This document shows positions 8,803 to 21,072 of a stretch of 64,000 nucleotides of DNA, in pieces. Position 1 is the stretch's first letter. Each line of letters begins with the position of its first letter. The notes below the pieces were generated by a model, which saw nothing but the letters and a program-made list of their open reading frames with translations, made no database searches and was not told where the DNA came from. The stretch covers positions 186,001 through 250,000 of the forward strand of contig CALVEH010000002.1 in NCBI GenBank assembly GCA_944326545.1, written 5' to 3'. A program made the position numbers and the translations under genes. The stretch is from Candidatus Gastranaerophilales bacterium. GTDB lineage: Bacteria > Cyanobacteriota > Vampirovibrionia > Gastranaerophilales > Gastranaerophilaceae.

Positions 8803-9663
8803 TTATATAAATACTTTTTTAGTAACTAACTTATCAATTTGTTTTTGAGCCAATGCACACAAATTATTTTTGAAGACCAGACAAACAAACTCATCTTGCT
8901 CAAATAATTCACAAAGCAGACTCTGACCGTGCTGAACTTTGTCCATTTGTTCTTCTGATAACTCGTACTGATGGTAGGATAAAACATCAACAGGATTTAT
9001 CAAAAAACTTTTAACAACATCAGCATCAGAGATACTATCCAATTGAACAGAATTATCCAACGTAAACAGACCGGATTTTGTCCGTGTTAAAGCTGTCATC
9101 ACTGCTCCTGAGCCAATATTTTGCCCTAAATCATTAACAATAGAACGAATGTACGTCCCCTTAGAACATGCAATTTCTATCTTCGCTGTCTGTAAAGACT
9201 CATTAAAATCTATAAGTTGAATCTTATTTATGACAACTTTACGTTTTGGAATATCATCAGGGATAATACCTTCTCTTGCAAGTTCATATAATCTTTTGCC
9301 GTTATAATGAACAGCCGAATAAGCAGGAGGAATCTGCTCTATCTCTCCTTCAAAAAAAGTCAAAGCTTGAATAATCTGCTCTTTTACAACTTTTTTATCA
9401 GAAAATTTTTCAACAACACCTTCTGTATCATAAGTATCAGAAACTTTGCCAAACTCAAGCTCAGCAATATAAGCCTTATCTTCTTTTAGATATTCTATCA
9501 AGCGTGTAGCTTTACCAAACGCAATAGGCAAAACGCCTTCAGCCAATGGATCCAATGTACCGGTATGTCCAATTTGTTTAAATTTAGAGACACGACGTAG
9601 TCTTGCGACAACATCATGCGAAGTTAAACCTTTAGGCTTATAAATATTTAAAAAACCAAACAT
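8803..9663 (-). CDS. truB: tRNA pseudouridine-55 synthase
   Basis: The protein has 286 aa. GFLNIYKPKGLTSHDVV at the start and IGHTGTLDPLAEGVLPI carry the TruB signature with the catalytic Asp in GTLDP (about residue 38). KAYIAELEFG, PPAYSAVHYNGKRLYELARE and CSKGTYIRSIVNDLG are further family motifs. The C-terminus (about 230-286) is a PUA-like extension. The enzyme makes pseudouridine 55 in the T loop of tRNAs. Its place directly after rbfA is the usual infB-rbfA-truB order. Confidence 0.95.
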   Translation of the reverse strand: MFGFLNIYKPKGLTSHDVVARLRRVSKFKQIGHTGTLDPLAEGVLPIAFGKATRLIEYLKEDKAYIAELEFGKVSDTYDTEGVVEKFSDKKVVKEQIIQALTFFEGEIEQIPPAYSAVHYNGKRLYELAREGIIPDDIPKRKVVINKIQLIDFNESLQTAKIEIACSKGTYIRSIVNDLGQNIGSGAVMTALTRTKSGLFTLDNSVQLDSISDADVVKSFLINPVDVLSYHQYELSEEQMDKVQHGQSLLCELFEQDEFVCLVFKNNLCALAQKQIDKLVTKKVFI

Positions 9664-9678
9664 AAATACACCGATTAA

Positions 9679-10032
9679 TTAAATTTCACCTTTAGAAATT
9701 TTATCAATCAAATCCATAACTTTAGTACCACGTTCCAAAGAATCATCAGGAATAAAACGCAATTCAGGAGTAAGTCTCAATCTTACTCTTTTACCAACCT
9801 CATATCTTATTCTTGAAACATTATCTTCCAAAGCTTCAATCGTCTGCTTTTTAGCCTCATCATTAGTAGAAAAAACAGAAAAGTAAACTTTAGCAAAAGA
9901 ATTATCATGAGCCAATTCTATATCAGTAATTGACACAACACCACTTATACGAGGATCTTTGATATCTTTTTGAATGATATCTGCAATTTCTTTCATTAAT
10001 GTTTTTCTGACTCGTTCGTTACGTAATGACAT
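9679..10032 (-). CDS. rbfA: Ribosome-binding factor A
   Basis: The protein has 117 aa. RNERVRKTLMKEIADIIQ at the start, KDPRISGVVSITDIELAHD, AKVYFSVF and TPELRFIPDDSLERG match RbfA, a KH-fold protein that binds the 30S subunit during maturation of the 5' end of 16S rRNA. The gene sits 2 bases after infB and 15 bases before truB, in the standard operon order. Confidence 0.95.
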   Translation of the reverse strand: MSLRNERVRKTLMKEIADIIQKDIKDPRISGVVSITDIELAHDNSFAKVYFSVFSTNDEAKKQTIEALEDNVSRIRYEVGKRVRLRLTPELRFIPDDSLERGTKVMDLIDKISKGEI

Positions 10033-10034
10033 AA

Positions 10035-12512
10035 TTACACCAAAACCTGTCTTTCTACTTCTTCAGTTGTTGAAACTTCTATAATATCGCCTTCTTGAAT
10101 GTCATTAAACTTAGCGAATGAGATACCACACTCAAAGCCAGTAGCAACCTCTTTAACATCATCCTTAAATCTCTTAAGTTGATCAATTGTACCTTTAAAG
10201 ATTTCTTGACCGTCTCTAACAACGACAGCTGTTTTACCTCTGAGTATTTTACCTTCAGTAACATAACACCCAGCGATTTTAGAAGTTTTGCCAACAGTAA
10301 ATACTTGTCTAACTTCAGCTTTACCAAGAGAAACCTCTTTAATTTCAGGTTGTAACAAGCTAAGCATTGTCTTTTCAAGGTCTTCAAGTATTTGATAGAT
10401 AATATCAAATTTCTTAATAGTAACATTTTCTCTGGCAGCTGCCAGTTCTGCGTTGTTATCTTCTTTTACTGTGAAGCCTAAGATAATAGCATTACTTGCT
10501 GCAGCAAGCATAACATCAGCCTCAGAAATATCACCAACACCAACGTGTATAAGTTTTATAACAATTTCTTTAGATTTAAACTGACCAATAGCCTGTGACA
10601 ACGCTTCAGCTGAACCATTTGTATTTGCCTTAATGATAAGGTTAAGATGTTGTATTCCGTCCTCACCTTCACCAACAATCTCATTTCTGATATGGTTAGG
10701 AAGCATTGCTTCTAATCTTGAATTTCTTTCTTTTTCTTTTCGTTCTGCAACGATAGAACGCATTATTTTTTCATTTTCTACAACTTCAAATTTATCACCT
10801 GCTTGAGGAACTTCTGTCAAACCTAAAATCTCAACAGGAGTAGAAGGTGTAGCTTTTTTAACTCTTTCACCTGAGTCGGATAATAAAGCTCTAACCTTAC
10901 CGCAAACGTTACCTACAACCACACAGTTACCAGTTTTCAAAGTACCGTTTTGAACAAGCAGTGTAGCAACAGGGCCTTTACCTTTATCAAGGTTTGCTTC
11001 AATAACAACACCTGATGCAGGTGCATCCGGATTAGCTTTAAGATCTTGAACTTCAGCCAACAACAAGATGTATTCAAGAAGTTCATCAATACCTGTACCT
11101 TGCAAAGCACTAACTCTAACGCAAACAGTATCTCCGCCCCACTCTTCCGGAACAAGTCCGTGTTCAGTCAACTGTTGCAATATTTTATCAGGGTTTGCAT
11201 CCGGTTTATCTATTTTGTTAACAGCAACAATAATAGGAACTTCAGCAGCTTTTGCGTGGTTAATAGCTTCGATAGTTTGAGGCATAATACCGTCATCGGC
11301 CGCTACAACGAGGATTGCAATATCAGTAGCCTTTGCACCTCTTGCTCTCATTTCAGTGAAAGCTTCGTGACCTGGAGTATCGATGAATACAATTTTTTTG
11401 TTGTTCAAATATACTGTATAAGCACCGATAGACTGAGTAATACCCCCAACCTCTGTTGAAACAATCTTATGTTTAGACGCTCTGATAGAATCCAACAAAG
11501 TTGTTTTACCATGGTCAACGTGCCCCATAATACTGATTACAGGAGCTCTTCTTTTTAATAATTTTGGATCAATAGAAGCAAGTTCTTTTGCTTCTTCTTC
11601 TTTTTGAAGTTCTTCTTCCATATATGCTTCAAGGTCTTCTTCAAGAACTTCAATTTCAAAACTTTCACAAACTTTTTTAGCTGTAGCAACATCAATAACT
11701 TGGTTTACTGTAGCCAAAATACCTTGCATCATTAGGAATTTAACAATTTCTGCTGATGCTTTATTAATTTTTTCAGACAACTCACCAACAGTCAGAGGTT
11801 GGTTAATAACAACGCTTTTTACTTCTTCTGCTGCTTCTTCAACATGAGATCTTTTTTTATGTTTTTGAGCATTAGCCTTTTCTAAACTAATTCTTTCTTG
11901 TTCTTCCTCTTTTGAATTGTATGATTTTTCTTTTTTCTTAGAACCTTTTTTCTTAGAGTTTCCTTTTGATTCATATATTTCTTGAGGAATTATATGACGT
12001 TGAATAGGTTTTTTATCTTGACGTTGCTCTTTTTTAGCATCAGCAGCTTTTTTAGTTTGAGAATCATTTTTAGCTGAATCACTCTTTTTGTCAGCTTGTT
12101 TTGTTGAAACTTTATCAGAAGCAGATTGTTTTGGAGCAGGTTTAACAACAGGCTTAGGTGGTTCAATTTTTCCTAATTTCAGTCTTGAAACAGGCTGAAT
12201 AACAGGTTGTTCAATTTTTCCTAACTTAATCTTTTCTTGCGGCTTCTTTTCTTCAACAACTGGTTCTTTTGCTGCCGGTGCTTCCTCAACTTTTGGTTTA
12301 GCCTTTTTAACAACAAAAGCCTTAGGTTTTTTAGTTGACTCTACCTTAGGCCCTGATAATAACTCTTTTAACTTATTCGCTTGAATAGAAGAAATTACAC
12401 TTGAATGTGACTTAACCTTTACGCCAAGCAGCGTATCCAACTTTTCTATAATCTCTTTATTGGACTTATTAAGTTCTTTTGCTAAATCGTACACTCTAAT
12501 CGTATCTGTCAT
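10035..12512 (-). CDS. infB: Translation initiation factor IF-2
   Basis: The protein has 825 aa. An N-terminal IF2_N segment (TIRVYDLAKELNKSNKEII) is followed by about 170 residues of Lys/Ala/Gln/Pro-rich linker and a second IF2_N-like domain (about 240-290). The GTPase domain has GHVDHGKTT (P loop, about 330), DTPGHEAF (switch II) and NKID. The beta-barrel and C-terminal fMet-tRNA-binding domains follow. The length is ordinary for a bacterial IF-2. The ylxR gene lies 53 bases upstream and rbfA follows at 2 bases. Confidence 0.97.
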   Translation of the reverse strand: MTDTIRVYDLAKELNKSNKEIIEKLDTLLGVKVKSHSSVISSIQANKLKELLSGPKVESTKKPKAFVVKKAKPKVEEAPAAKEPVVEEKKPQEKIKLGKIEQPVIQPVSRLKLGKIEPPKPVVKPAPKQSASDKVSTKQADKKSDSAKNDSQTKKAADAKKEQRQDKKPIQRHIIPQEIYESKGNSKKKGSKKKEKSYNSKEEEQERISLEKANAQKHKKRSHVEEAAEEVKSVVINQPLTVGELSEKINKASAEIVKFLMMQGILATVNQVIDVATAKKVCESFEIEVLEEDLEAYMEEELQKEEEAKELASIDPKLLKRRAPVISIMGHVDHGKTTLLDSIRASKHKIVSTEVGGITQSIGAYTVYLNNKKIVFIDTPGHEAFTEMRARGAKATDIAILVVAADDGIMPQTIEAINHAKAAEVPIIVAVNKIDKPDANPDKILQQLTEHGLVPEEWGGDTVCVRVSALQGTGIDELLEYILLLAEVQDLKANPDAPASGVVIEANLDKGKGPVATLLVQNGTLKTGNCVVVGNVCGKVRALLSDSGERVKKATPSTPVEILGLTEVPQAGDKFEVVENEKIMRSIVAERKEKERNSRLEAMLPNHIRNEIVGEGEDGIQHLNLIIKANTNGSAEALSQAIGQFKSKEIVIKLIHVGVGDISEADVMLAAASNAIILGFTVKEDNNAELAAARENVTIKKFDIIYQILEDLEKTMLSLLQPEIKEVSLGKAEVRQVFTVGKTSKIAGCYVTEGKILRGKTAVVVRDGQEIFKGTIDQLKRFKDDVKEVATGFECGISFAKFNDIQEGDIIEVSTTEEVERQVLV

Positions 12513-15115: not shown

Positions 15116-15273
15116 AACCGACCTCCGAAATTACTCTTACGAGTACATAACCTTATTAATCTAACCTTACACTTATATAAAAACAATTTAGATTTCATAA
15201 TTGCTTAAAGCAAAAATTTTTCTTAACATTTGTTAACAATTTTCAATGATAAAATAGTAAAATTGGAGAGAAA

Positions 15274-18200
15274 ATGCTTATACAAGGCAGCTGCAAAAGC
15301 GACAGAACAAACCTACTAATACAAAAATATACGGATTTGCTCAACAGTGGTATTGAGGCAAACAAAATACTTGTGCTTTTACAAAACTCCTACAAAAAAA
15401 ATCAATTCATTGCAGAAGTAAAAAAACTACTAAAAATCCGGCATTACGAAGATCCACAAATACACACATTTTACGGCTTAATTTACAACACAATACTAAA
15501 TTTTTGGCCTATAATCCAAGACACAATAAACATTGGAGAAAACGTTGTTACTCCAAATCTTACGGGTCTTGAAATTTCGCAATTTTTCTTTAGACAAGCA
15601 GTCAAAGAAGCAGGTTTTAGCGATTACAACTCAAAGATAAACTTAATCCACCAGATGTTTAGAAGATACTCGCTTATAGTAAATAACGCCCTTTCTGAAC
15701 AAGAAGTGGAAAAACGTTCACAAATACTTAAAGAAGTATTTGCCACAGACGCAAAATCGGCAATAGAAAATTACAAGAAAAAGACTCTCGAATACAGAAC
15801 ATTTGACTATATAAGACAAGCTGCCGTATTTAGTTATATCTACAAAAAGCATAACTGTTTTAAGGATATACAATACCTTATACTTGACGATGCAGACGAA
15901 ATAACAACACTTGAACTGGATTTTATAAAGAGCATAAAACCACAACTTAAAGAAGCTATTATAGGATATGACAAATACGGTTCAAGCAGAATAGGTTTTC
16001 TAAACACTGACACACAGACAGTTAAAGAAATTGAAAAAACTTTTTCAAACGAAGAAAAAGTTAACCTTGATAACATAGATAATTTCACACCACAAGTAGA
16101 ACACAATGACTGTTCAAGACGTTTGGAAATGTTAAATAAAACAGCTGAAAAAATATCAGAACTTATAAAAAAGGGAATATCACCTGATGAAATAAGCATA
16201 ATAACACCAATTATTGACACAACATTAAAATTCACATTTGAAGAAGCATTTTTACCGCAAAATATAAAAATTTCATATTATTCCGGTAGTGAAAAGCTTA
16301 AAGACACTCCTCTCGTAAAAAACATACTAACCGTTTTAAATATGTCTTTAGGTGTAGAAACAGATGTTTTTAGCGTAAGGTCAGTACTAAACAATATGCT
16401 AAAAATTCCTGTTAAATATTGCATGCCTGTCATTGTGAAATATAAAGAAACAGGTTCAATACAAGCTACAGAATTTGAAAACCCAATTTATACAGAAGCA
16501 ATAAAAAAGCTTAAAGAAACAATAGACAAAATAACAAACGAACAGATGACCTTGTCTCAAAAGACATTTGAGATATACAAAAACCTTGTTAATCCAAACT
16601 TTGATGAATTTTACCAGCTGGAGAAAGTGAACTTTTTTATAAAACAAATACAAGACTTTGAAAATGTTTTTCACAGCCAAAAATGCAACCAAGCATTACA
16701 AAAAGCGATCTTAAACCAGCTTGAAAACTCAATTATATCTGAAAACCCCGCTTTTGCCCCCGAAATAGAAGAAAAATCAATAATTGTAGCAACAGCACAA
16801 AAAATAATAGATTTTTCTCTAAAAACAAAATACCAATTTTGGCTTGATATAAGTTCTTCCGAGTGGACAAAAGAGGATATGGGTACTCTTTATAATGCCT
16901 GGGTGTTTCAAAAGTCTTGGAATAAAGAAGAATTTACCTATGAAGACAGTATTGAACTTGCAAAGCTAAAGACCAAAAAACAGTTACGCAAACTTTCTTT
17001 ATTAGCGCAAGATAAAATTTATGCGTACTCTAGCCTTTTTGATACAGAAGGTAATGAAAACTTTGGAGGTATAGAAGAATACATACTGCCTAAAGAAAAA
17101 CAAACAAAGGACTTTGATTTTAAATTTACACCTCGTGACGACCAAAAGCCTGTTCTGGAATATAAATCCGGAAATATGGCTATATCTGCAGTGCCGGGAG
17201 CGGGCAAAACAACAATACTTCTTGCACTGATAATAAAACTTCTATCTGACGGGGTACAAAGTGACAACATATTTGTTATGACATATATGGATTCAGCAGC
17301 CAAAAACTTTAAAGAAAGGATAAAAAAAGCTTGTCCAAACCTTGAAAAAATGCCTAATATTTCAACAATCCACGGACTTGCATTAAGAATTTTAAAAGAA
17401 AACTCAAATTATCTTAGAGTTGGGCTTAATGCTGATTTTGAGGTTTGTGACGACAACCTCAGACAAAAAATCATTAGAGAAATTATGTCAAAGCTTCAAA
17501 TTGACCAAAACGAGTTTGACCGCTATGACAAAGCTATATCAGCACTAAAACTTTCTGACGTAAAAGAAATCCCCTACATCAAAGACAGAGAAATCTTTCT
17601 TTTCATAAAATTTTACAACGCCTATAACAACTACCTAAAAAGCAGAAACATTATAGACTACGATGATATGCTTTCATATTGCGTAAAAATTCTTGAAGAA
17701 AACAAAGACATAGCAGAATATTATCAAGATATCTGTCACTACGTTATAGAAGACGAGGCTCAAGATTCATCTGTTATTCAACAAAAACTGCTGTCACTTT
17801 TATGCCAAAAGCATAAAAACCTCATTCGCTGTGGAGATATAAACCAAGCAATCACAACAACTTTTACAAACGCAGACTTGGAAGGGTTTAAAACATTCAT
17901 ATCAAACAGCAACAACGTGTCAATGAACCGTTCTCAAAGATGTTCAAAAGATGTTTATCAAACAGCGAACAGACTTATAGACTTTTCTAAAACAGACGAA
18001 AACTTAAAAAATTCGTTTTTCGACATAAAAATGAACGAAGTTACAGGCAAAAACCCTGTAGTTACTAACGGATTAAATGTACAAACATTCGACAATTACA
18101 CAGAAGAAAATAACTACCTTCTGGAACAAATAAGAAATATATTTAATAAAGACTCAAAAGCAAGTATCGCTATACTTGTAAGGAATAACTACATAATTGA

Positions 18201-19095
18201 AGAGTATTCTCAATTTTTAGGACAATACGGTTACAACGTAATAACAAAAAGCGACTGTCTTAAAAACCAACCTGTGTTTGCGTTAATACTTGCTCTGCTA
18301 AAATTCTGCTCTCACCCTTGGAATAATGAAACAGTCTTAAACGTAGCGGAAACAATTAAACAACAAAAGATTTTAAAAATAACAAACGAAGATTTACAGT
18401 TTATAAAAGATTTAAAAACACCATTTATATTACAAAAAGCAGACGAAACAGAAAGTTCACAACTATCACAACTGTTGTGGGACTTAAACTACTGGCTTGA
18501 AAACACACATCTTACAATAGAAGAAACTGTAGTAAAAATGGGAAATTATTACTACAACACAGATGTAGAAAAATCAAATATCTACATAATAGCTACACTG
18601 CTAAAAAGAATGGAAAGCCAATACAAAACACACGATATCTTACTTGAAAGAATTGAAGAGCTTTCTCAACGTCCTATACTTAGCAAATTCAAATTCTTTA
18701 CAGATACAGAAGAAAAGTCAGACCTTAAAGAATCTTCTATACAAATAATGACATACCACAAATCAAAAGGTGACGAATTTGATTACGTGTTTATCCCCGG
18801 ACTAAGCGAAGAAATACTGCCAATAGACTTAAATCAAATAAAAATTAAATCAAAAGAGCGTTTTATAGAAGCAGTAAAAAGCTTAAACTTAAAATACAAG
18901 AAAAAAGATGAGCAACAGCTTAAACAATTTATTGCACAAGAAAACTTAAGGCTTTTCTACGTAGCAATAACAAGAGCCAAGAAGAAACTCTACATAAGCT
19001 GTGCTAAAAAATACAAAAAATATTCAAGACTAAAAGATACTAAAATTTCACTTTTGTTCGACAATATGCTTTTAGGAGAAAAAAATGCAAACTAA
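15274..19095 (+). CDS. Double UvrD-like helicase, AddB-AddA-like fusion
   Basis: The protein has 1273 aa. The C-terminal half is a complete SF1A helicase: Walker A AVPGAGKTT (639-647), DYDDML, motif II DEAQD (827-831), GDINQAI, motif V with YHKSKGDEFDYVF and motif VI LFYVAITRAKKKL (about 1227-1240). The N-terminal half repeats a degenerate helicase plan: IQGSCKSDRT in place of Walker A, LILDDADEI in place of motif II and IIGYDKYGSS in place of motif III. In AddAB the AddB subunit is likewise an inactivated helicase. The gene is followed, with an 11-base overlap, by a separate Fe-S nuclease. I infer a recombination-repair helicase-nuclease of AddAB/RecBCD type. Confidence 0.8.
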   Translation: MLIQGSCKSDRTNLLIQKYTDLLNSGIEANKILVLLQNSYKKNQFIAEVKKLLKIRHYEDPQIHTFYGLIYNTILNFWPIIQDTINIGENVVTPNLTGLEISQFFFRQAVKEAGFSDYNSKINLIHQMFRRYSLIVNNALSEQEVEKRSQILKEVFATDAKSAIENYKKKTLEYRTFDYIRQAAVFSYIYKKHNCFKDIQYLILDDADEITTLELDFIKSIKPQLKEAIIGYDKYGSSRIGFLNTDTQTVKEIEKTFSNEEKVNLDNIDNFTPQVEHNDCSRRLEMLNKTAEKISELIKKGISPDEISIITPIIDTTLKFTFEEAFLPQNIKISYYSGSEKLKDTPLVKNILTVLNMSLGVETDVFSVRSVLNNMLKIPVKYCMPVIVKYKETGSIQATEFENPIYTEAIKKLKETIDKITNEQMTLSQKTFEIYKNLVNPNFDEFYQLEKVNFFIKQIQDFENVFHSQKCNQALQKAILNQLENSIISENPAFAPEIEEKSIIVATAQKIIDFSLKTKYQFWLDISSSEWTKEDMGTLYNAWVFQKSWNKEEFTYEDSIELAKLKTKKQLRKLSLLAQDKIYAYSSLFDTEGNENFGGIEEYILPKEKQTKDFDFKFTPRDDQKPVLEYKSGNMAISAVPGAGKTTILLALIIKLLSDGVQSDNIFVMTYMDSAAKNFKERIKKACPNLEKMPNISTIHGLALRILKENSNYLRVGLNADFEVCDDNLRQKIIREIMSKLQIDQNEFDRYDKAISALKLSDVKEIPYIKDREIFLFIKFYNAYNNYLKSRNIIDYDDMLSYCVKILEENKDIAEYYQDICHYVIEDEAQDSSVIQQKLLSLLCQKHKNLIRCGDINQAITTTFTNADLEGFKTFISNSNNVSMNRSQRCSKDVYQTANRLIDFSKTDENLKNSFFDIKMNEVTGKNPVVTNGLNVQTFDNYTEENNYLLEQIRNIFNKDSKASIAILVRNNYIIEEYSQFLGQYGYNVITKSDCLKNQPVFALILALLKFCSHPWNNETVLNVAETIKQQKILKITNEDLQFIKDLKTPFILQKADETESSQLSQLLWDLNYWLENTHLTIEETVVKMGNYYYNTDVEKSNIYIIATLLKRMESQYKTHDILLERIEELSQRPILSKFKFFTDTEEKSDLKESSIQIMTYHKSKGDEFDYVFIPGLSEEILPIDLNQIKIKSKERFIEAVKSLNLKYKKKDEQQLKQFIAQENLRLFYVAITRAKKKLYISCAKKYKKYSRLKDTKISLLFDNMLLGEKNAN

Positions 19096-19753
19096 TAATG
19101 CACAAACATATACCCTCTCAAAATTGCAAATGTATGACGAATGCCCTCAAAAGTACAAGTTATGCTACATAGATAAAGTACATATTGCAGAGCTAAACAC
19201 TCAAACACAAACAGGTAATAACCTGCATAATATAATAAATTATTACCTCAAAGGAATGGATGTAACAAAGCTTATCGAAGCACTCCCACCAAGCGATAAA
19301 GCTCTGTGGCACAATTTTAAAACTAACGAGATAAAAAACTACAAAATAGTTGAAAGTGAATACGCATTCAACTTAAAGATTGATGAGCATTGGCTAACGG
19401 GAAGAATCGATGCCCTGTTTGAATTTGACGGAAACTATATAATTTTAGACTGGAAAACAGGCTCAAGCTTTACCCCCGAAAATGTAAAATTTCAAACAAA
19501 ATTCTATCTTGTATGCTTGTATGAAATATTAAAACTTAAAAAGCTTATCAACACCCCAGAAGAACTTTCAATGCAATATCTAAACCTTGCAACTAACAGT
19601 AAAATAAAAATACCTTTTGATAGTGATTTATACATAAACTACAAAAAAGAAATTTTAGAAATAATAAGAAAAATCAACGAAAGTACAACATACTTTTGCA
19701 ACAAAAAAGACACCTGCAAATATTGCAAATACTATAGAGCCTGTCCGTTTTAA
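19085..19753 (+). CDS. PD-(D/E)XK nuclease with predicted 4Fe-4S cluster
   Basis: The protein has 222 aa of the PDDEXK_1 (Cas4/AddB nuclease) type. It shows H48 in GNNLHNI, D109 in GRIDAL and D122-W-K124 in ILDWKTG as the active site. C20 (in YDECP) with C211-x2-C214-x5-C220 at the C-terminus gives the four-Cys pattern that binds 4Fe-4S in AddB and Cas4. Its start overlaps the double-helicase gene by 11 bases, and AGGAG precedes the ATG. In AddB this domain is fused to the inactive helicase, whereas here it is free-standing. It is probably the nuclease subunit of the same complex. Confidence 0.88.
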   Translation: MQTNNAQTYTLSKLQMYDECPQKYKLCYIDKVHIAELNTQTQTGNNLHNIINYYLKGMDVTKLIEALPPSDKALWHNFKTNEIKNYKIVESEYAFNLKIDEHWLTGRIDALFEFDGNYIILDWKTGSSFTPENVKFQTKFYLVCLYEILKLKKLINTPEELSMQYLNLATNSKIKIPFDSDLYINYKKEILEIIRKINESTTYFCNKKDTCKYCKYYRACPF

Positions 19754-19792: not shown

Positions 19793-20440
19793 ATGCAAAC
19801 TTTGTCTAATATATCTTTTAAATCAAGAAACAGTCTCGTAAAAGACGCAGGATTGGTGTGTAGAAAAGTAAGAACAGCATTCCCTTACGTTTCCCACGCA
19901 AAAGCTGCACACGAAGCAAGCACTGAAATATTAAAAAACAAAGATATAGTAAACTTTATCCTCAAAAGAGAAAAAACACTAAAAGAATACAGAGAAGACC
20001 AAAGACATATACAAAAACCGTTCAACCGCTACAAAGAAATACTATACTGCGCAATAAAAGAAAAACTTGCTGCCTGCTATGACCTTTCTGTACTGACAGA
20101 ACTTGTTTTACGTCTCAACGGAATCAAAAACTGTACAAAAGTATCTCTAACTAATGCAGAAGGAAAACTTCTTAACCATAGTGCAGTAATTGTAAAAACA
20201 AGCAACAACCCTAAAAAAAATATAATCATTGACCCTTGGTTGCAAGACTGCGGATTGGAATCAGAAATGCTTACAAAATACAAAAGTATTTACGCAAAAT
20301 ATTTCAGAAAATTGTCCCCAAATGACAAAATAGAGCTGATACTTCGCCCGCAAGAAAAGCTATCACAAGAAGAAATTAATTATTTTAAAGAAAAATATCC
20401 GCAACTAATAATAAACAAAGCTCTTTTCACAAAAGCATAA
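19793..20440 (+). CDS. Hypothetical protein, possible C-H-D (papain/transglutaminase-like) fold
   Basis: The protein has 215 aa. The N-terminus, MQTLSNISFKSRN, carries the short SFK-type motif seen in several other proteins of this window. The core holds an ordered Cys-His-Asp set: C95 in AACYDLS at a helix start, H129 in NHSAVIV and D147 in IIIDPW. This order and spacing are typical of transglutaminase/papain-like catalytic triads (C-helix, then H-x-x-V strand, then D-P-W). The function is inferred from pattern only. There is no signal peptide, and the ribosome site is weak or absent. It follows the nuclease gene by 39 bases. Confidence 0.65.
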   Translation: MQTLSNISFKSRNSLVKDAGLVCRKVRTAFPYVSHAKAAHEASTEILKNKDIVNFILKREKTLKEYREDQRHIQKPFNRYKEILYCAIKEKLAACYDLSVLTELVLRLNGIKNCTKVSLTNAEGKLLNHSAVIVKTSNNPKKNIIIDPWLQDCGLESEMLTKYKSIYAKYFRKLSPNDKIELILRPQEKLSQEEINYFKEKYPQLIINKALFTKA

Positions 20441-20502: not shown

Positions 20503-21072
20503 CTAATCCAAGTAGAATGCAGTAATAACTTTGTGAGATTCTTCCGCATACTCAATAGCTTTGTGCAAAGTATTTGAAGTATGTGACAAGAAACATATCA
20601 ACTGCTGACAGTCATCGATAATCTCTCTGTTACAAATGCGGCTGGCATCAGCAAGAGTCATCATAGCTCTGTCAGAGTGTTCAATAATATTAGGAACACC
20701 AATCAACTGATCCTGTACGTCAGAAGGTTGCTGACCAATAGTCTGAGGTAAAATAACTTTCAATTTATCAGGGTTAGACTTCATAGCACCTCTGATAGTT
20801 GCAGCGTTAGTACCTGAAGAACCACCTGACGTAATGATTGTATTACCTTGAGCAACCAGTGCATAAGATAACGTTTCAATAATTTGTTGGTGAGTAATCG
20901 GCAAATTACGACTGCCGATAATAGCAATTCTCTTAGCAGACTGTTGTATCGTAGCAAGCTCCATAGCAAGCTGATCTACAGTGTTTGCTTCATCCTCAGG
21001 AACCTTATCAAGGTCATCTGTAGGAACCATAATCGTAGGTTGTTCTTGTTTTTCTTGGTTTTCGTCTGACAT
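20503..21072 (-). CDS. SLOG/DprA-like Rossmann-fold nucleotide-binding protein
   Basis: The protein has 189 aa. An acidic, disordered N-terminus (1-35) precedes RIAIIGSRNLPITHQQII, TIITSGGSSGTNAATI and LKVILPQTIGQQP. These match the GSR and SGG loops of the DprA/LOG/YpsA (SLOG) superfamily, which bind nucleotides or nucleotide-derived ligands. The C-terminus continues the Rossmann core (QLICFLSHTSNTLHKAIEYAEE). It is too short and lacks the features of a full DprA, so a role in transformation is not claimed. AGGAAACG precedes the ATG. Confidence 0.75.
   Translation of the reverse strand: MSDENQEKQEQPTIMVPTDDLDKVPEDEANTVDQLAMELATIQQSAKRIAIIGSRNLPITHQQIIETLSYALVAQGNTIITSGGSSGTNAATIRGAMKSNPDKLKVILPQTIGQQPSDVQDQLIGVPNIIEHSDRAMMTLADASRICNREIIDDCQQLICFLSHTSNTLHKAIEYAEESHKVITAFYLD

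Follow-up and report, generated by a model that had tools for sequence, protein, structure and literature searches.

What enzyme makes double-strand ends ready for RecA in the majority of cyanobacteria? The question arises because model strains, according to the accessible part of a published survey, lack recB, recC or recD, and recBCD is found in marine Prochlorococcus and Synechococcus (PMC5101192). We came to it through a locus in the genome of Candidatus Gastranaerophilales bacterium (assembly GCA_944326545.1). Within the window, i.e. the whole stretch of 64,000 nucleotides (nt) analysed here (contig CALVEH010000002.1, positions 186,001 to 250,000), one gene encodes a long chain of two helicase halves and the next, overlapping gene encodes a nuclease. 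We favour the reading that this locus probably encodes an AddAB/AdnAB-like helicase-nuclease acting on double-strand ends, in a split-and-fused layout, with the mechanism and history proposed below. The system formed by the two halves and the nuclease is real and conserved. This three-part set has been little noticed so far, is present as separate genes in most sampled cyanobacteria and may process broken DNA ends in those without RecBCD; its interest is mainly that of a testable end-processing enzyme for most cyanobacteria. Its features in the window are:

15265-15270, + strand: ribosome-binding-like GGAGAG, a purine-rich stretch in the sequence upstream of the fused helicase gene
15274-19095, + strand: fused two-helicase chain, 1273 amino acids (aa), called as an open reading frame (ORF)
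15274-17127, + strand: N-terminal half (N-half, residues 1-618), predicted degenerate UvrD-like (AddB/AdnB-like) helicase module, from the AlphaFold (AF2) model, Foldseek and VIA-align comparisons and PF00580 in three relatives
15286-15309, + strand: degenerate Walker A of the N-half, GSCKSDRT (from residue 5), by motif alignment; intact in some relatives
15883-15900, + strand: motif II-like LDDADE of the N-half; D-x-D-E in 45/48 family rows
17140-19008, + strand: C-terminal half (C-half, residues 623-1245), complete superfamily 1A (SF1A) helicase; PF00580 3.4e-47, PF13361 1.5e-27
17188-17211, + strand: Walker A of the C-half, AVPGAGKT (residue 639); GxGKT in 48/48 rows
17746-17772, + strand: motif II of the C-half, IEDEAQDSS (residue 825); DEAQD in 48/48 rows
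18961-18984, + strand: motif VI of the C-half, VAITRAKK (TRA at 1233); TRA in 48/48 rows
19074-19079, + strand: ribosome-binding-like AGGAGA in the sequence, within the 3' end of the helicase gene and upstream of the nuclease start
19085-19095, + strand: 11-nt overlap of the helicase and nuclease genes
19085-19753, + strand: free-standing PD-(D/E)XK nuclease gene, 222 aa; PF12705 (PDDEXK_1) 1.1e-18

Two helicase halves and a detached nuclease

An earlier reading, made from the sequence only, had described one 1273-aa chain joining an inactivated helicase half to a complete SF1A helicase, and a separate, overlapping gene for a four-cysteine nuclease. The chain is confirmed by the ORFs, Pfam, the motifs and the N-half model, and the nuclease gene by the 11-nt overlap and the cysteines C20, C211, C214 and C220 of its product. 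The C-half is the part that Pfam recognizes: UvrD-helicase (3.4e-47, residues 623-876) and UvrD_C (1.5e-27, residues 889-1245) match there and nowhere else in the chain. It has a further SF1A motif, GDINQAI, at residue 854, and its GKT, DEAQD and TRA motifs are retained in all 48 family rows. With profile A3, PcrA was matched at 7.4e-74. Unlike AddA, the chain has no C-terminal nuclease, as it ends 28 residues past the UvrD_C match (1245/1273) and shows no PDDEXK match. None of the NCBIfam addA and addB models scored over its cut-off (addA_Gpos, 110.6 bits vs 707.65).

The N-half is harder to recognize. Taken by itself, the window's N-half (residues 1-618) matched no family in Pfam or in NCBIfam, addB models included. 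In three relatives PF00580 rises above its gathering score of 23 bits within this half (L050, 40.5; L083, 28.0; L206, 27.7), and the N-halves of L212 and L203 gave no PF00580 match over the cut-off. The N-half profile also picks up the start of the C-half and its motif II region, which indicates that the two halves are homologous. An AF2 model built from 20 sequences (mean pLDDT, the predicted local distance difference test score, 87.8) gives residues 1-610 a full UvrD-type fold. Foldseek ranks UvrD chains first (2.4e-20, TMq 0.58), and among its best 50 matches the highest TMq values belong to AdnB (0.69) and AddB (0.64). Aligned with VIA-align, the model gave Z 29.2 and a root-mean-square deviation (rmsd) of 8.7 over 503 residues for UvrD, Z 23.9 and rmsd 4.4 over 567 for AdnB, and Z 22.5 and rmsd 5.5 over 562 for AddB. 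We conclude that the N-half, as modelled, is a complete helicase module of the UvrD superfamily with an AdnB/AddB-like domain arrangement. Residues 1-600 do not fall outside the UvrD/AddB family, given PF00580 in L050, L083 and L206 and the UvrD-like fold, and their earlier description as an inactivated, AddB/AdnB-like half of that superfamily is supported by the same relatives and model.

Walker A (GxxxxGK[ST]) is kept in the N-half by 11 of the 48 family rows; some relatives have GPPGTGKT or GPLGSGKT, and the window has GSCKSDRT. At the position aligned with the motif VI arginine, no row has Arg (acidic in 36, Lys in 9, other in 3). Judged by these motifs, the N-half motor is decaying and has presumably lost its ATPase activity.

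Two relatives carry an in-frame insert of about 200 aa in the N-half (L081:5495-6199 and L080:5339-6043) with a DUF559 endonuclease-like domain (3.8e-37 and 2.1e-36, respectively). The inserts are flanked by a PLPQGE-type repeat peptide and look like a mobile in-frame cassette.

Alignment A6 has 24 nuclease rows, and C20, C214, C220 and the active-site pattern of E92, D109, D122 and K124 are the same in all of them; C211 is not invariant. A6 omits some photosynthetic nucleases, including the cysteine-poor L242 and L257. The AF2 model (pLDDT 92.0) has AdnA as its closest Foldseek match (TMq 0.75), followed by ACE1 and Cas4 among others. Assignment to the AddB/AdnA/Cas4 four-cysteine type is supported, and we infer that the cysteine cluster carries iron. 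Orthology with the PDB entries 9iab/9iac was considered and rejected: those are ACE1, and the cyanobacterial nuclease profile (A5) matches 9iab at 0.0021. No publication carrying these two codes was found in openly licensed PMC texts. In L081 a nucleotidyltransferase/HEPN gene pair, identified by Pfam, lies between the fused helicase and the nuclease (9631-11150), and the nuclease bears an insert of its own of about 58 aa.

Fused, clustered and scattered forms across the phylum

How widespread is this arrangement? The fused family is present in 54 of the 59 genomes searched, the window's own included, so that chance or an assembly artefact is ruled out as the origin of the layout. Seven of the 54, all of them draft genomes, have an incomplete or fragmented gene, and the family was not found in G029, G038, G050, G053 and G058. 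Named loci matching both halves come from Gastranaerophilales and uncultured bins, plus a Vampirovibrio at 27% identity; the fusion, whose presence in relatives had been left for a search, is thus conserved in Gastranaerophilales and a Vampirovibrio. The nuclease gene adjoins the helicase gene in 39 of the 49 genomes read, again including the window's own. In eight of the other ten, the family profile matches a stand-alone nuclease at another place in the genome, at 6e-63 or better. Those ten include G057 and G042, in which the contig ends 125 nt (L055) and 562 nt (L044) past the helicase gene and the nuclease lies on another contig.

Across the phylum, the N-half profile has matches in 302 of 386 genomes. 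Genomes were taken as photosynthetic on a match to PF00124 (Photo_RC); G167 has all three parts and gave no match, so it is not counted as such. In the photosynthetic genomes read, the N part is a separate gene of about 660-725 aa, the C-half is a separate gene elsewhere (about 735-840 aa), and the nuclease has a third location (about 250-285 aa). Walker A is intact in all ten undivided photosynthetic N genes examined; in photosynthetic G225 (L204) the N gene is split into two ORFs. In photosynthetic L267, the C-half and nuclease genes are about 1 kb apart on opposite strands with no N gene near. The same three parts are found as separate genes in most of the sampled cyanobacteria. The sequence-only reading had called the locus an unusual partition of a RecBCD/AddAB machine; the AddB/AdnB-like split layout stands, and, since the parts are separate genes across the phylum, the locus makes better sense as a three-part, phylum-wide set in its fused form. 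Outside the phylum, a small and non-random sample of 45 genomes (46 of the 53 loci L089-L141 were chosen, and 45 of the 46 were covered) gave four weak P-loop matches with the N-half profile and nothing else.

The three genes also occur side by side. Six of the seven non-photosynthetic loci read outside the class (L212, L263, L264, L265, L266 and L268) have the order N, C, nuclease on one strand, and the seventh, L206, has the N gene without the other two. L263-L268 had been chosen for proximity of the C-half and nuclease genes, with an N gene beside them no criterion, and L212 and L206 for their N gene. L266 is cut by both contig ends, leaving its N and nuclease genes partial, and G089, with C-half and nuclease on one contig, lay outside the set of loci read. 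Directly downstream of the row, four of the six three-gene loci have recJ (above the NCBIfam cut-off); L212 has none there, and the L266 contig ends inside the nuclease gene. At L206, recJ and the N gene are divergent neighbours.

In a tree of 65 helicase rows, all 39 C-half rows, whether fused, in an operon or scattered, fall on one side of a branch with 100 in the Shimodaira-Hasegawa-like approximate likelihood ratio test (SH-aLRT). On the other side are 26 other UvrD/AddA/RecB-like helicases, among them the PcrA and an AddA-like chain of the window genome. The 21 fused rows share one side of another branch (SH-aLRT 99), so that one fusion event suffices. The tree was made with a quick method, has several long outgroup branches, and its rows differ in letter make-up.

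The three parts also co-occur. From the 386 genomes we hand-picked 66 so that families and genera were represented; the N-half profile had matched 43 of these and not the remaining 23. The limits for presence were set after viewing gaps in the scores: G089 was counted as having the C-half (1.6e-52), and G061 and G066 as lacking both C-half (1.9e-30 and 2.4e-31) and nuclease (5.7e-9 and 5.5e-8). All three parts without RecC were found in 37 of the 66 genomes, and RecC with none of the parts in 15, all of family f37. Among the 35 photosynthetic genomes outside f37, by hand count, 32 have N, 33 C, 33 the nuclease, 30 all three and none RecC. In G136 (f35), which is photosynthetic and 99% complete, no part of the set and no RecC was found. 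C-half and nuclease are together in 42 of the 45 genomes that have either, and Fisher tests of co-occurrence gave 9e-7 to 6e-14. In the larger set of 386 genomes, 62 have RecC (PF04257), and f37 accounts for 57 of these; none of the 57 is among the genomes with an N-half match, and the other five (four of f14, plus G105) all are.

These distributions bear on two alternatives. One is that a Cas4-like nuclease acts independently of the two-helicase chain, which would be a translocase working by itself, its N-half no more than a structural relic. The nuclease was not found beside the helicase in 10 of 49 genomes, and the three genes are scattered in photosynthetic cyanobacteria, as this would predict. 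However, the 42 of 45 co-occurrence of C-half and nuclease, together with an N-C-nuclease order shared by the fused lineage and six non-photosynthetic loci, makes it a distinctly improbable explanation.

The other is an anti-phage defence module, with a Gabija-like UvrD helicase and a Cas4/ACE1-like nuclease. Models of PADLOC for GajB do match the C-half (best 6.6e-55) and those for Cas4 the nuclease (1.5e-14), and the Argonaute-associated Cas4 ACE1 was among the first Foldseek matches, behind AdnA. Like Cas4/ACE1 (9iab/9iac), the nuclease is a free-standing PD-(D/E)XK enzyme of similar fold, and it matches the Cas4 family TIGR00372 below the cut-off (5.6e-14, 52.4 bits vs 65); unlike them, its gene overlaps that of a helicase. 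The GajB matches span the generic UvrD core and nothing more; GajB chains in PDB have about 495 aa. Among the four neighbouring ORFs scanned there was no GajA-like, cas or Argonaute gene (neither GajA nor CRISPR arrays were searched genome-wide). Defence systems are patchy, whereas the N-half is in 302/386 genomes, the parts co-occur, the C-half forms one tree group and RecJ is the neighbour in four loci. We consider a defence role very improbable indeed; a defence island as such was rejected, the PADLOC matches being generic.

A candidate end-processing enzyme and its rivals

The AddAB/AdnAB-like reading rests on comparison with known enzymes. The mycobacterial AdnAB likewise combines two UvrD-like helicase modules with a PD-(D/E)XK nuclease, and by predicted models AdnB is the best rigid fit of the N-half and AdnA the top match of the nuclease. 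Whereas both AdnAB chains end in a nuclease, the window has its two helicase modules in one nuclease-free chain and its single nuclease as a separate protein. With AddAB, known from Firmicutes and Proteobacteria, the system shares one active SF1A motor (AddA-like) and one inactive helicase-like module (AddB-like), and about 560 residues of the N-half can be superposed on the AddB chains 4cej, 4cei and 3u4q. AddB carries its four-cysteine nuclease at the C-terminus, whereas in the window the nuclease is detached and encoded by its own gene, and the motor and non-motor modules are fused. As for RecBCD, RecC (1w36_C) is among the Foldseek matches of the N-half, but the RecC family PF04257 is absent from the window genome (G000). 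The neighbouring ORFs that were scanned include no RecD-type second motor (no genome-wide search for RecD was made).

Starting from the computed parts, predicted folds, motifs, gene order, co-occurrence and single C-half group in the tree, we infer operon ancestry, complex formation, strand polarity, resection, hand-over to RecA and any Chi-like control. By analogy with AddAB and AdnAB, the C-half would be an ATP-driven 3'-5' SF1A motor that translocates on one strand. The N-half could serve as a non-motor module comparable to AddB or RecC, which splits off and holds, guides or reads the other strand. The separate four-cysteine nuclease might dock on the helicase chain and cut the emerging strands supplied by the motor, which would leave single-stranded DNA for RecA. 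The ancestral state was probably three co-directional genes, N, C and nuclease, which would have undergone a single N-C fusion in the Vampirovibrionia lineage and become scattered in photosynthetic cyanobacteria. The distribution suggests that an AddAB/AdnAB-like end-processing enzyme is ancestral to the phylum and was displaced by RecBCD in one lineage. On a broader proposal we are evenly divided: a phylum-wide three-subunit enzyme of the AddAB/AdnAB class would have been overlooked, being the ancestral resection enzyme, replaced by RecBCD in the small-genome RecC lineage, fused in Vampirovibrionia, and the missing end-processor of model cyanobacteria without RecBC. It could have been overlooked because the inactive subunit mostly escapes curated models, the motor resembles another UvrD and the nuclease is detached.

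Several observations weigh against the AddAB/AdnAB-like reading. The Z-score of the N-half is higher for UvrD (29) than for AdnB and AddB (22-24), though the UvrD rmsd is poorer, and for that reason specific descent from AddB is not proved. The photosynthetic nucleases L242 and L257 are without most C-terminal cysteines, so an Fe-S cluster is not universal in the family. G033 and G045, which have no adjacent nuclease, gave no stand-alone one either with the family profile, and in G105 and G072 the C-half and nuclease are on different contigs though no photosystem gene was found. In the 66-genome sample, nine genomes have partial sets (C and nuclease in four, N and C in two, N and nuclease in one, N with RecC in two), four have neither the three-part set nor RecC, and G105 (9% contamination) has all three parts plus RecC. 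Phylogeny is not taken into account in the co-occurrence statistic, whose RecC side is essentially f37 plus f14. Finally, the window genome has a second AddB-like/AddA-like pair, which could itself carry out double-strand break resection.

Matches to PF12705 and PF00580 locate this second pair near recA on contig C1 (L003:8465-13507). Its first gene encodes 860 aa and has a PDDEXK_1 domain at the C-terminal end of the product; the gene directly downstream encodes an AddA-like, UvrD-type chain of 819 aa. The 860-aa chain is weakly AddB by sequence (addB_alphas, 0.0083) and had no match among PDB sequences; the label AddB-like comes from the domain order and the AddA-like neighbour. At 860 aa it is short, and inspection by eye showed no Walker A close to the start. 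A profile made from AddB-like chains took in several different helicase-nuclease fusions, and no claim here uses it. A full addAB elsewhere in the genome, which was expected to be absent, is thus present at least as a pair that is weakly AddAB by sequence, and the fusion is not the sole AddAB-like machine here. Within the same order, none of six genomes from families f2 and f3 (drafts of about 150-410 contigs) has a PDDEXK_1 chain longer than 350 aa, which leaves the fused system as the only AddAB-like candidate found there.

Could the set then have a different main job? The three proteins may form a complex whose site of action is a stalled fork or a gap, with RecJ as a possible partner, and which leaves breaks to the other AddB/AddA-like pair where this is present. 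The window genome and some relatives do carry both sets, and recJ follows directly in four of the six three-gene loci; the available part of one paper describes RecJ as a gap-repair exonuclease (PMC1193525). Against it, no AddB-like chain was found in the six f2/f3 drafts, and all 15 sampled genomes of the RecC family f37 are without the three genes, as expected if RecBCD takes over the same job. We regard a fork- or gap-related main role as unlikely and retain end processing as the favoured function.

The literature that we could consult gives partial guidance. The same paper treats the general distribution of RecBCD and AddAB in the part available (PMC1193525). For PCC 7942 and PCC 7002, the accessible part of the cyanobacterial survey lists a recB similar to that of E. 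coli (PMC5101192); this might be a C-half orthologue. S. elongatus is stated to encode AddAB, with no genes named in the portion available (PMC10269773). PMC5704561 and PMC11063404 had no bearing on the matter in the portions available. No description of the three-part set was found among the titles and opening lines of abstracts listed from openly licensed PMC texts; subscription journals lie outside that coverage.

The three co-occurring gene families, present in 30 of the 35 photosynthetic genomes outside the RecC family, make the question of the end-processing enzyme testable by knockouts in standard strains. Cyanobacteria serve as model organisms in gene replacement. For structural work and biochemistry, the fused version provides the system as two proteins. 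If the end-processing reading is true, an enzyme of this class can have its motor, non-motor and nuclease modules encoded by three genes or by two.

Neighbouring genes and other observations

A scan for promoters and terminators was uninformative, as sites were rarer than in shuffled sequences. Phage origin was also considered: tblastn against 50,697 phage records gave 43 matched records, none covering 80% of the query, and this origin was rejected. Among the phage matches listed (20 of the 43), similarity is confined to the UvrD core, at 23-28% identity.

Downstream of the nuclease gene, a SLOG/DprA-like gene (20503-21072, - strand) matches PF02481 at 1.2e-6 with 28.3 bits, just below the cut-off of 29.6. 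In relatives it adjoins a PcrA-type gene, and it is near the three-gene row in L212, where it is 57.5% identical. We excluded it as a component of the system because it stands beside the PcrA-type gene in genomes without the three-part set. The gene between the two, at 19793-20440 (+ strand), encodes 215 aa and gave a weak match to PF04473 (transglutaminase-like). Many loci stop about 1.5 kb downstream of the helicase gene; among the loci searched, the BLAST matches of this protein besides its own are in L013, L014, L015 and L028, all of the same genus.

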